Assembly (NCBI GenBank): GCA_021324365.1
Contig: JAJPJE010000102.1
Coordinates: forward strand, 1-34,495
From: Terriglobia bacterium
Lineage (GTDB): Bacteria > Acidobacteriota > Terriglobia > Terriglobales > Acidobacteriaceae
DNA: 34,495 bases
Direction of reading: 5' to 3'
Shown here: positions 380 to 4,814 of the stretch, piece by piece
How positions within the stretch are numbered: position 1 is the first letter of the stretch
Layout of the letters: the number at the start of each line of letters is the position of its first letter
The notes under the pieces: generated by a model
The model's database searches: none
What the model was told of the DNA's origin: nothing
The model's input: the letters and a program-made list of their open reading frames with translations, nothing else
Made by a program: the position numbers and the translations under genes

Positions 380-1522
380 TTAATCTTTCAATATCTGTCG
401 CGCGATCACCATGCGCTGAATTTCGCTTGTCCCTTCGCCAATGGTGCATAGCTTCACGTCACGATAGAACTTCTCGGCCGGATAATCTTTGATAAAGCCA
501 TAGCCGCCGTGAATCTGCACGCCTTCATTGGCGCATTTCACCGCCACTTCGCTGGTGTAAAGCTTTGCCATTGAGGATTCCAGCGTGGTCTTCATGCCCT
601 CATCTTTCATCCACGCCGCCCGCATCGTAAGCAGTCGAGCCGCATCGATTTCCGTAGCCATATCCGCCAGTTTCCACTGGATTGCCTGGAATTCGCTGAT
701 GGCCTTCCCGAACTGCCGCCGCTGTTTCGAGTAGTTCAGCGCCGCCTCGTAGGCGCCCTGCGCCATTCCCAGGCCGAGCGCGGCAATGGAAATGCGCCCG
801 CCGTCGAGAATGCGCATCGCATCGATGAAGCCGTCACCCTCTTTGCCGACCAGGTTTTCCAGCGGAATTTCGCAGTCTTCGAACACGAGTTCAGCCGTGT
901 CACTGGCGCGCAGTCCTAGCTTGTTCTCTTTCTTACCTGCCTTGAATCCCTTGGTACCTTTTTCGACGATGAACGCCGATAGTCCATGCGTGTGCGCCGT
1001 CTTGTCCGTCACGGCGATCACCACCACGACGTCCGCATAGTGCCCGTTCGTGCAGAACGTCTTTGTTCCATTCAGAATCCACTTGTTGCCTTTGCGCACG
1101 GCCGAACAGCGCGCGCCGCCCGCATCGGAACCTGAACCCGGTTCCGTGAGTCCCCAGGCCCCGATGAACTCGCCACTCGCCAGCTTCGGGATGTACTTGC
1201 GCTTCTGCTCCTCGCTTCCGGCCACGAAGATGTGGTTCGAGCACAGGGAAGTATGGGCCGCCACGATGATCCCCACCGACCCGTCGACCCGTGAAAGCTC
1301 CTCAATCGCCAGCACATACTCGATATAACCCATCCCGGCGCCGCCATATTCAATCGGGAAGATGATCCCCGTTAAGCCCAATTGCCCGAGTTGCTTGATC
1401 GTCTCGCACGGGAAATGGGACTCCTCGTCCCACTTCATCACGTTCGGCAGAATCTCGCGCGTGGCGAAATCGCGTATGGTTTTGCGCAAATGCTGCTGCT
1501 CGTCAGAAAGCTGGAAGTCCAA
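380..1522 (-). CDS. Acyl-CoA dehydrogenase (short/medium-chain type)
   Basis: A 380-residue FAD enzyme that would oxidise an acyl-CoA to the trans-2-enoyl-CoA and pass electrons to an electron-transfer flavoprotein, in the cytoplasm. The length is typical of the family. The N-terminal helical domain leads to the flavin/substrate segment [14 protein letters not shown]. The C-terminal helical domain carries [18 protein letters not shown] and ends in [18 protein letters not shown], where Glu363 is in the position of the catalytic base of short- and medium-chain enzymes. The start is TTG at 1522, preceded by AGGGGA seven bases upstream; no ATG fits better. It is the last gene of the minus-strand group and ends 40 bp from the IS110 remnant. 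The chain-length preference cannot be read from sequence; butyryl-CoA-like is a reasonable guess. Confidence 0.93.
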
Positions 1523-1664
1523 TGCTTTGTCCCCTTTACGCGGAAAAACTAGTCCACATCCCCCACCAGTACGGAACCGCTATGTATAACATAAACTTTC
1601 AGGCTCGGAAAGGCAGGCTTATAGCACGATGGGAGCGGGATTTCGGTAATCCGCTGCTGGGAGT

Positions 1665-1679
1665 GCCGGTTTCTCCGGC
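1665..1679 (-). other. Small hairpin between selW-like gene and acyl-CoA dehydrogenase
   Basis: GCCGG and CCGGC form a perfect 5-bp stem around a 5-base loop, about 40 bp past the stop of the SelW-like gene. No T-run follows on the minus strand, so it is not a convincing intrinsic terminator. Its role is unknown. Confidence 0.3.
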
Positions 1680-1719
1680 GCGTTGGGTGTAAGCGGGAGG
1701 CTGCGGCTGTACCCTTGTC

Positions 1720-1956
1720 TTAAGTCGCAGTTGCGAGCTGCCGCAATTTGGCAATCAGTTCCGCGGATGTGGGCATGCGACCACTCTGGGATTTCGAGTA
1801 CACCGTCTTGCCGTCCGCGATCACGTTCAACGATCCCGGCATTCCCATCCGTATCCGTACCGGGAGCCTCAGTTCGCGTTCGATGTCCTGTTTCAGGCTC
1901 ACGGCCTGTTCTTTGATGTCGTGTCAGTAAAAGCAACGCTTGATCTCGATATTCAT
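1720..1956 (-). CDS. SelW-like selenoprotein (Rdx family), UGA at codon 11
   Basis: Reading from ATG at 1956 gives MNIEIKRCFY, then in-frame TGA (1924-1926), then an open frame to TAA at 1720: 78 residues if TGA encodes selenocysteine. Cys8-Phe-Tyr-Sec11 is the CxxU redox motif at the N-terminal beta-alpha junction of the SelW/SelT/SelH (Rdx) family. The rest fits the fold, with a helix (QAVSLKQDIERELRL), the GSLNVIADGKTVYSK strand pair, GRMPTSAEL and a last helix. Family members without selenium have Cys in this place. AAGGG lies eight bases before the ATG. The gene follows threonine aldolase by 83 bp on the same strand. Rdx proteins are thought to be thioredoxin-fold oxidoreductases; the substrate is unknown. 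Automated calling would give only a 60-residue fragment from GTG at 1902. Decoding needs selA, selB, selC and selD elsewhere in the genome. Confidence 0.85.
1894..1908 (-). promoter_or_regulatory. Putative bacterial SECIS hairpin
   Basis: On the minus strand, CAGGC-CGTGA-GCCTG forms a perfect 5-bp stem with a five-base loop containing GU. It starts 16 bases after the UGA, and the loop G is about 22 bases after it. Bacterial SECIS elements sit inside the coding region just downstream of UGA and have a short stem with a G/GU in the apical loop, which SelB recognises. The geometry fits. No folding energy was computed. Confidence 0.65.
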
Positions 1957-2039
1957 GTTTTGCCCTTGAAGTTGTTGTCTCGGGTGTCCCACTCATGCGA
2001 AGCAGCGAGTAGGAATTGCTAACGTCTAATGACCAACCA

Positions 2040-3122
2040 CTAATCATTAACTACTTGCTTCACCGCTTCCAGCGCTCTTTCACAAGCCTCGCGATTCACA
2101 TCCATGTGCGTCACGAAGCGTACTCGTTGTGTATCGGCGGTCCCGGCGAGCAGATTCTTTTCCGCGAGCTTGTGTGTGAACTCGCTCGCGCTCATGCCAG
2201 TGCCGCTGACATCGAAGATCACAATGTTGGTCTGCACGCGCGCCGGATCGATGTCGATTCCCGGTAGTCCCGCCAAGCCCTTCGCAAGAAATTTTGCGTT
2301 AGCATGATCTTCATGCAGGCGCGCCGGCATCTTCTCGAGGGCAATCAACCCCGCAGCCGCAAGGATTCCTGCCTGCCGCATACCGCCGCCGAGCGCCTTG
2401 CGGACGGAGCGTGCCTGCTCGATGAAAGTCTTGTTACCCACGAGCAGAGATCCCACCGGTGCACCCAATCCTTTAGACAGGCAGAACATGACTGAATCAA
2501 ACTTCCGCGTAATTTCTGCCACGGGTTTGCCCAGCGCCACTGCCGCATTGAAAATTCGAGCGCCATCAAGATGTACTGGCAGTCCCGCTTCATGCGCACG
2601 GTCGCAGATGTCATCAGCGATCTTCTGCGGATATACCGTGCCACCCGCCATATTGTGTGTGTTTTCCAGTTCTACAAGCCCGGTTTGCTGCCGGTAATAG
2701 ATCCGCGCAGAGATCTGTTTGCGAACCATCTCCCATGTCAGGATGCCATCTTCCGAATAGATCGGCCGCACCGTACATCCGGAAAACCACGCCAACATGG
2801 CCATTTCCCAGTTGAAGATGTGACCGCGTTCTTCGCAAATGATCTCCTGTCCCGGCTTGGTGTGCAGCTTGATCGCGATCTGATTGCCCATCGTCCCCGT
2901 CGGTACGAAGATCGCGGCCTCCCGTCCGAAGATTTCGGCAGCGCGCTGCTCGAGCCGGTTGATAGTAGGATCCTCGCCGTAAACATCGTCGCCGACCTCG
3001 GCCTCTGCCATCGCAATGCGCATCTCCGGCGTGGGCTTAGTCACGGTATCGGAGCGCAGATCGACAATCGTGGGACGAGAGGTTTGGAGTTCGTCGGCGG
3101 CGTGGGTGGCAGGTGACGACAT
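2040..3122 (-). CDS. ltaE: Low-specificity L-threonine aldolase
   Basis: A 360-residue PLP enzyme of fold type I that would cleave L-threonine or L-allo-threonine to glycine and acetaldehyde in the cytoplasm. Recognisable family segments in order: [15 protein letters not shown] near the N-terminus, [51 protein letters not shown] (Asp186, Arg189) and [14 protein letters not shown], in which Lys217 is the PLP-binding lysine. ATG at 3122 gives the family length, though with a 14-residue N-terminal leader before the conserved region and no good ribosome site. The SelW-like gene lies 83 bp downstream on the same strand and may be co-transcribed; no functional tie is known. Confidence 0.93.
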
Positions 3123-3346
3123 GGAACAAGTCTAATCCATCGCGGAGTTCAGATTGAAGGTTTGCGTGGCGCAGCCGCCCTTGGCTGTGCTTCCGAAAAG
3201 AAGACGAGTCGCAAAGACTTTGCTTCCGCAACCATACGCGATGCATCGGGGCAACTTGGCTAGGCGGACCAGGGAATGCACCAACGAGAGTTGGGTAGCG
3301 GCAGTCAGGCGATCTACAATCCTGCATTCTTTGTTTTTAACTGCTT

Positions 3347-3351
3347 AGGAG
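3347..3351 (+). promoter_or_regulatory. Ribosome binding site deciding a TTG start
   Basis: AGGAG lies five bases before TTG at 3357. It selects that codon over the ATG at 3276, which would add 27 residues with no family resemblance. Confidence 0.65.
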
Positions 3352-3356
3352 AACTC

Positions 3357-4814
3357 TTGGCATACATTCAGTTTCTCGGCGCGGCAGGGACGGTCACAGG
3401 ATCGAAGCATCTGATTAACACCAACGATGATGGGAGTAGCCATGGCGGGTTCCAGGTGTTGATCGACTGCGGTCTGTTTCAAGGACAGAAAGAGTGGCGC
3501 GAACGGAACTGGCAGGAGCCGCCACTTCCAGCGCAAGACATCGATGCGGTGATCCTGACTCATGCTCATCTCGATCATTGCGGATGGATTCCACGTCTGG
3601 TGAAGGAAGGTTACGTCGGTCCGATCTACGCGACGCAGGCAACAATTGATTTATGCGGGATACTGCTCCCTGATTCCGGTCATCTGCAGGAAGAGGATGC
3701 GGCGTTCCACAACAAGAAGAAAACGTCGAAGCACGAGCCGGCTTTGCCGCTTTATACGTTTGAAGAGGCGCAGGCGTGTCTGTCGCAGTTTGTCGCGGTG
3801 GATTTCGAGCAGAGTAAGCAGTTGCGGCCCGACTTCTCGTTTCGCTTTGTTCGTGCCGCACACATCATCGGGTCATCCATGGTCGAAGTGAATATCAAGG
3901 GTTCAGGAAAACAGCAGAAGCTGCTGTTCACGGGAGATATTGGCCGCGTTCGCGATTCGCAAATCGCTCCGGGGCGCGTAGCGCACTATGGGCCTGTGGA
4001 AGGCGAATCAGCTGACCTGTTGGTGATGGAATCAACATATGGAAATCGGTTGCATCCGAAAGACGATCCGCGCCCCGAACTGGCGCAACTGATTCGCAAT
4101 ACCGTAAAACGCGGCGGCAGCATCGTGGTTCCCGCCTTCGCCGTCGAACGCACGCAGAAGTTCCTATTCATGCTTAAGGAACTGATGGAGGCTGGAGAAA
4201 TTCCGCGCCTCCCTGTTTTCGCGGACAGTCCTATGGCGATCGAAGCGGTAAAGATCTACCTGAAGCACAGCGAAGAATTCACAGAAGAAGCAAAAGCACT
4301 CATTGCTAGGTACGGCTCACCTCTCGAGTGGCAGGGATTCACGTTTGCGAAGACACAGGAGGAGTCGAAACGGATCAACGATAGCAAGTTCCCCTGCATT
4401 ATTGTTTCGTCCAGTGGAATGGTAACGGGCGGTCGCATCCAGCACCATCTGCTGCAGCGCCTGCCGGACCCGCGCAACCTTATCCTGTTTATCGGCTTTC
4501 AGGCACCTGGCACGCGTGGTGCAACTATCAAGGCTGGTTCGACAGAAGTGAAGATCTTTGGCGAGATTGTTCCCATTCGAGCTCAAGTCGCCGCACTCGA
4601 GCAGTTTAGCGATCACGCCGACACCCCGGAGCTTCTCGAGTGGCTCGGAACGTTCACGGCACCGCCACGGATCACGTATCTGGTACATGGCGAACCGGAT
4701 TCAGCGGAGCAGTTGAGACAGGCGATCACGCGCGAGTTGAGATGGAAAGTAAACATCGCGGAGTGGAAAGAGAGAGTCAGCTTGAACGGTCTGGCAGCGG
4801 CGATATCTCGGTAA
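3357..4814 (+). CDS. MBL-fold/beta-CASP metallo-ribonuclease-like protein
   Basis: Taking the TTG start gives 485 residues beginning MAYIQFLGAAGTVTGSKHL, the usual beginning of bacterial CPSF73/Ysh1-like proteins. Visible motifs: the zinc motif THAHLDHCG (His69-x-His71-x-Asp73-His74), LLFTGDIGR, ESTYGNRLH, the beta-CASP segment PAFAVERTQ, SSSGMVTGGRIQHHL and the late histidine motif SDHADTPELLEWL followed by YLVHGEP. Members of this family are RNA endo- or exonucleases of the cytoplasm. No KH or other RNA-binding extension is present. The gene is divergent from threonine aldolase across 234 bp and convergent with the protease gene. The family is sure; the actual RNA substrate is unknown. Confidence 0.92.
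   Translation: MAYIQFLGAAGTVTGSKHLINTNDDGSSHGGFQVLIDCGLFQGQKEWRERNWQEPPLPAQDIDAVILTHAHLDHCGWIPRLVKEGYVGPIYATQATIDLCGILLPDSGHLQEEDAAFHNKKKTSKHEPALPLYTFEEAQACLSQFVAVDFEQSKQLRPDFSFRFVRAAHIIGSSMVEVNIKGSGKQQKLLFTGDIGRVRDSQIAPGRVAHYGPVEGESADLLVMESTYGNRLHPKDDPRPELAQLIRNTVKRGGSIVVPAFAVERTQKFLFMLKELMEAGEIPRLPVFADSPMAIEAVKIYLKHSEEFTEEAKALIARYGSPLEWQGFTFAKTQEESKRINDSKFPCIIVSSSGMVTGGRIQHHLLQRLPDPRNLILFIGFQAPGTRGATIKAGSTEVKIFGEIVPIRAQVAALEQFSDHADTPELLEWLGTFTAPPRITYLVHGEPDSAEQLRQAITRELRWKVNIAEWKERVSLNGLAAAISR

Follow-up and report, generated by a model that had tools for sequence, protein, structure and literature searches.

A conserved in-frame TGA in a SelW-like gene of a Terriglobia bacterium is very probably read as selenocysteine

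Does the TGA codon near the start of a short reading frame in a Terriglobia bacterium end the gene, or does it encode selenocysteine (Sec)? The frame lies on the minus strand of the window, by which we mean the whole stretch of DNA that was analysed (34,495 nucleotides of contig JAJPJE010000102.1, assembly GCA_021324365.1). A sequence-only reading had proposed a hidden selenoprotein of the SelW type at this locus, with an ATG at 1956, a TGA as codon 11 preceded by Cys-Phe-Tyr, and a frame of 78 residues that stays open to 1720. All of these elements are present: codons 8–11 are TGC TTT TAC TGA, and TAA at 1722-1720 closes the frame. The intergenic gaps on the two sides of the gene measure 83 and 197 bases. 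A promoter scan of 1500-2100 gave no match; in the window, Rfam at its gathering scores returned nothing, and ARAGORN called no tRNA. The coordinates of the features are collected in Table 1. At 3276-4814 the window also encodes a β-CASP metallo-hydrolase of the aCPSF1/RNase J type, which scores 350.1 bits against the type VII CRISPR Cas14 model, far under its cut-off of 800.

Table 1. Features at the SelW-like locus, in window coordinates.
Feature	Position	Strand	Basis
Acyl-CoA dehydrogenase, downstream neighbour	380..1522	-	Pfam/NCBIfam
SelW-like (Rdx family) CDS, 78 residues, Sec predicted at codon 11, TAA stop	1720..1956	-	frame, Pfam, genome search, homologues
SECIS-like hairpin, stem CAGGC/GCCUG, loop CGUGA, loop starts 20 nt after UGA	1894..1908	-	
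In-frame TGA, very probably read as selenocysteine (U of CxxU)	1924..1926	-	TGA in 23/24 aligned genes
Codon 8, TGC, Cys of CxxU	1933..1935	-	Cys codon in 23/24 aligned genes
AAGGG, probable ribosome-binding site ahead of ATG 1956	1963..1967	-	inference from sequence
PLP-dependent aldolase, threonine-aldolase/GntG type, upstream neighbour	2040..3122	-	Pfam/NCBIfam

The proposed membership of the Rdx/SelW family was upheld by both the sequence profile and the predicted fold. With C substituted for the TGA residue, Pfam Rdx (PF10262) matches the read-through product at 30.5 bits (E 4.4e-7), above the gathering cut-off of 22.6. A six-frame search of the organism's own genome with the same model gave this locus as the sole match at E 0.001 (28.8 bits, above cut-off, one TGA inside). 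The Rdx model matches 23 of the 24 aligned family members at E 0.01. The NCBIfam model TIGR02174 is covered nearly whole (E 7.7e-6), and the score of 26.1 bits lies below its cut-off of 34.2; by this model the product is thus divergent and stands outside the core membership.

The structure predicted by AlphaFold2 from the family alignment (C for U) has a mean pLDDT of 91.8. Its elements run in the order strand, helix, three strands and two helices, and the CxxU motif lies between strand 1 and helix 1. The modelled fold is thioredoxin-like, and the motif sits where helix 1 begins, the place of CxxC/CxxU in such proteins. The best match in the PDB is the SelW-related protein 2p0g (TM 0.86). Six entries (2p0g, 2fa8, 2ojl, 3dex, 2obk and 2oka) contribute all 21 chains matched at E up to 0.001, and several of them carry SelW-related or Se-binding in their titles; the next match is mouse SelW (2npb).

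The earlier reading also held that this organism makes selenocysteine, and the genome is consistent with it. The assembly (4.44 Mb in 125 contigs, 95.39% complete) was searched for selC, selA, selB and selD, and all four were found. The tRNA-Sec gene scores 66.1 bits, above the curated cut-off; ARAGORN calls it SeC(tca), with the anticodon UCA, and an encoded G-CCA follows. The second match above the Rfam cut-off is a tRNA-Ser. SelB (379.5 bits), SelA (551.4 bits) and SelD (368.2 bits) are each above their curated cut-offs. The selD gene (L018, C7:14120-15067) has an in-frame TGA of its own within AGUASK, at what we take to be the catalytic Cys/Sec position, and SelD is itself probably a selenoprotein. 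With the TGA in the SelW-like gene, the genome would have at least two selenoproteins as judged by sequence.

UGA could also be translated as cysteine by a tRNA-Cys of the selC* type with a UCA anticodon. Such tRNAs exist in some bacteria, according to the accessible text of PMC7609411. The tRNA found here, however, matches the tRNA-Sec model and is followed by G-CCA, and G73 serves SerRS (same text of PMC7609411); SelA and SelD accompany it in the genome. We regard a cysteine readout as very improbable. Recoding of UGA to an ordinary amino acid was rejected: seven of the 25 long open reading frames selected in the window end in TGA, so TGA is also an ordinary stop here.

If the UGA is read as Sec, homologues would be expected to have Cys or Sec at position 11, and it is the TGA codon that the relatives offer. 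A single-sequence search, which may miss distant homologues, gave 25 matches in 24 of 200 genomes, own genome included; a TGA lies inside 23 of the 25 and is absent in two. The codon alignment comprises 24 genes from 23 genomes, again with the own genome, and leaves out L035 (G132), which matches from residue 16 or 17 on only, has an upstream part that fits no frame, lies near a contig end and stands outside the TGA count. In the Sec column there are 23 TGA, one CCC and no Cys codon, and the same 23 rows have TGC or TGT in the Cys column. The TGA is kept in genes down to 28% identity with that of the window. Codons 1–10 are likewise conserved, with ATG at the same place. The single exception belongs to G023 (L036:1501-1734, and L067 near 2174), in which TPLFP replaces RCFxU; both redox residues are lost and the frame is open. 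This genome has kept SelA, SelB and tRNA-Sec. One further genome, G107, has two RCxxU SelW genes (L027 and L046), which come from different branches. A scan of named genomes with the SelW protein as query found no relative.

The coding character of the region is also seen in its substitutions. In every one of the 10 pairs compared, the rate per site after the TGA is higher for synonymous than for nonsynonymous change (for L033/L046, dS is 0.65 and dN 0.05). Before the TGA, at most about ten codons are available and the differences are few; nine pairs again have the higher synonymous rate, and L026/L029 has two nonsynonymous differences and no synonymous one.

A pseudogene, that is, a Cys-type SelW gene with a nonsense mutation or a dying gene, would agree with the patchy distribution (24 of 200 genomes) and with the one relative that lost both redox residues. 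The same TGA in 23 of 24 genes, the open frames with nonsynonymous change restrained beyond it, and the place of the phylum's eight Cys forms on another branch of the tree argue against it, and we consider this reading hardly credible. A decayed frame in close relatives had been named as the observation that would overturn the selenoprotein reading; the TGA lies within a conserved frame in all rows except that of G023, where the motif has changed and the frame remains open. A sequencing error as the origin of the TGA was rejected in view of its conservation.

The presence of SelA matches the Sec reading without testing it strictly. SelA was found in 159 of the 200 genomes at E 0.001 and above the curated cut-off in 142, and it is so widespread that its co-occurrence with SelW is no strong test. 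A SelA match is present in 22 of the 24 SelW-bearing genomes (in G163 as a fragment that scores under the cut-off); G119 and G191 lack such a match and do have selB and selC. Given a homologue in 24 genomes and SelA above cut-off in 142, the SelW-like gene seems dispensable.

In bacteria, a SECIS hairpin is expected just after the UGA. The bacterial model, as given in the accessible text of PMC13188914, has a loop of 3–9 nt, an upper stem of 4–16 bp, a G in the first two places of the loop, a spacing of 16–37 nt, and a minimum free energy (MFE) of −7.5 or lower. The hairpin CAGGC-CGUGA-GCCUG of the window gene fits this model. It resembles a bacterial SECIS in its 5-bp upper stem, in its 5-nt loop with G second and then U, and in the 20 nt between UGA and loop; its MFE of −8.1 kcal/mol is near the model limit of −7.5 kcal/mol. 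When the window gene was shuffled synonymously 60 times, 22% of the shuffles fit the model and 17% did so with as low an energy. Across the family, 21 of 23 genes have a hairpin that fits the model, where synonymous shuffles would give 11.0 (P 2.5e-6 on the assumption, which does not hold, that the genes are independent); two genes have none. In 16 of the 23 genes the best hairpin has the shared spacing of 20–22 nt, and in five it lies elsewhere. Relative to synonymous codons, the mean z falls to −1.24 at codon +4 and to −1.06 at +2, which overlaps it, and ranges from −0.27 to +0.53 in other stretches; the window gene itself has a z of −1.52 at codon +4, where 13% of shuffles are as low.

The comparative evidence for the shared stem is mixed. 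The five-pair stem is formed in 85.2% of alignment cells, and three of five covariation measures lie above all 500 shuffles while two do not. In a control with the stem slid by −1, the count of doubly changed cells is the same (seven) and there is one more such pair, with pairing and covariation far lower. The RNAalifold consensus of the alignment is weak (−2.95 kcal/mol), and when 54-nt stretches are folded the shared stem is missing from some genes (e.g., L025, L026, L029, L038). A hairpin that fits the model (−17.1 kcal/mol) is also present in L036, where there is no Sec codon; thus, the signal may in part be inherited or dictated by the protein. The one terminator-like match in 1500-2100 is this same stem on the other strand. 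As a whole, these data support the assignment of the hairpin as a putative SECIS element.

An internal GTG at 1902, from which standard gene calling was said to start, is present and in frame. Were it the true start, translation would yield a short protein that lacks the redox motif, and the part upstream would be non-coding. This has very little in its favour beyond the frame, since codons 1–10 and the ATG are conserved in relatives, the GTG falls partly within the loop of the SECIS-like hairpin, and several relatives (e.g., L025, L027, L028) have GGG in its place; the chance that it is the start seems negligible. The reading of the gene is hereby corrected, as standard gene calling would cut it at the TGA.

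An overlapping frame of 142 residues (1619-2047, minus strand, ATG start) is longer and has weak tblastn matches in relatives (best E 2.8e-10), one of which (L023, E 2.1e-7) also spans the part preceding the stretch shared with SelW, but neither Pfam nor NCBIfam gives a match to it at E 1, and its tblastn matches fall mostly in the shared stretch, as expected of a shadow frame, so that we give it next to no chance of being the true gene.

Sequence gives the reading frame, the conservation of the TGA, the presence of the machinery, the family assignment and the predicted fold, and together these make it very probable that the gene encodes a SelW-like selenoprotein with UGA read as Sec. For the insertion of Sec and the redox chemistry we draw on established knowledge of the pathway and the family. 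The ribosome would start at ATG 1956. The tRNA(Sec) would be charged with Ser and converted by SelA, using selenophosphate from SelD. SelB, bound to the hairpin just past the UGA, would then bring Sec-tRNA(Sec), through its UCA anticodon, to codon 11, and translation would continue to the TAA. We expect the product, with an estimated mass of about 8.9 kDa, to be a small oxidoreductase of the thioredoxin type whose Cys8 and Sec11 lie where helix 1 begins. The two residues would join reversibly in a selenenylsulfide, and the protein would have thiols or disulfides as its targets.

The neighbouring genes recur in part of the relatives. The dehydrogenase is beside SelW at 15 of 24 loci, the aldolase at 14 and both at 13 (flanks of about 1.5 kb or less; absences unproven). 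We also used the acyl-CoA dehydrogenase as the query and examined the best 80 of its 519 relatives for an adjoining SelW gene. These 80 are nearly all from MAGs, labelled Acidobacteria(-ota), Acidobacteriales, Acidobacteriaceae, Terriglobales, Terriglobia or genera thereof; judged by this gene, the organism would group with Terriglobia-type Acidobacteriota, and we take it for a soil-type acidobacterium. The TGA form of SelW was found at four loci (L054, L055, L059, L071) and the TPLFP form at one (L067). The proteins of L054, L055, L067 and L071 are identical to those of L028, L040, L036 and L030, respectively, so that only L059 is new evidence. The remaining 75 loci have no convincing SelW (three weak matches of at most 13.2 bits were counted as none), and at least seven of them (L057, L065, L101, L102, L124, L125, L132) have under 600 bases upstream of the dehydrogenase and are not countable as absences.

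A wider draw from the phylum gave matches in 122 of 396 genomes. Of these matches, 30 were retrieved as loci and all 30 have CxxU; two of them are the own genome and G075 again. Thirteen listed matches lack a stop, and when all were read, eight proved to be YCxxC, two have U, and three show no motif. The remaining matches contain TGA, and the motif was read in the 30 loci plus three more. In a tree of 61 rows, all 20 RCxxU rows together with L036 form one branch (support 100/100, length 1.25), and the eight YCxxC rows form a separate one (100/99); the program cautioned that columns were few, rows long and the bootstrap unsettled. The window's own bacterial family supplies 19 of the 20 RCxxU rows. 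The remaining row, L136 (G312), is from another family and may reflect horizontal transfer. L168 (G256) is a YCxxC form from the window's own family, but it sits on the other branch of the tree. A further Rdx-like gene with TGA was seen in L177, L178 and L179 (G108, G055 and G262), matching the first 50-odd positions only. L177 and L178 read HCPTU and L179 reads YCDTU, with an insert before the last helix, and there are many similar partial matches in the phylum.

It is conceivable, if rather unlikely, that the RCxxU lineage is a separate, Sec-only SelW-like branch in Terriglobia with a job of its own, which may be linked to the acyl-CoA dehydrogenase or the aldolase next to it. On loss of selenium chemistry it would have no Cys fallback: the motif would go altogether, as in L036, or the gene would be lost. 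The strict use of Sec (no Cys in 24 aligned genes) could be useful for understanding why SelW-like proteins rarely swap Sec for Cys, and a well-supported branch of Sec proteins is added for Acidobacteriota, the phylum of the 200 sampled genomes of which 142 have SelA above the cut-off.

SelW-like bacterial selenoproteins with CxxU have long been known (accessible text of PMC1088965 and PMC1794560). Two marine surveys (accessible text of PMC1088965 and PMC2398784) place them with the most common selenoproteins of bacteria, which makes the window gene less surprising. The part of PMC1794560 available to us tabulates bacterial families with the figure 10 for SelW-like, notes that Cys forms are very scarce in organisms that use Sec, and counts three selenoprotein families with four proteins for Acidobacteria. 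The 2026 review PMC13188914 contains neither "SelW" nor "Acidobacteri" as the start of a word. The accessible parts of open papers on SelW-like selenoproteins, Acidobacteria and the Rdx family yielded no mention of an RCxxU form, and this faintly suggests that the divergent branch may be novel.

The SelW-like gene itself is an annotation correction within a known family rather than a new kind of system. It shares with known SelW-like selenoproteins the Pfam family (PF10262), CxxU at the start of helix 1, an in-frame TGA with a SECIS-like hairpin after it, and the scarcity of Cys forms where Sec is used. It differs from them in reading RCxxU, where 32 other rows of the phylum and class read YCxxU, and in a spacing from Sec to the conserved Ala of helix 1 that is longer by one residue. 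Compared with the six SelW-related structures, the predicted fold is the same (TM 0.78–0.86 by query length), and their sequences match the family profile at E 1.4e-9 to 3.3e-5, yet their identity with the product is 18–22%. In 2fa8, the single alignment of the six that was inspected, Cys stands where the protein of the window has its predicted Sec.
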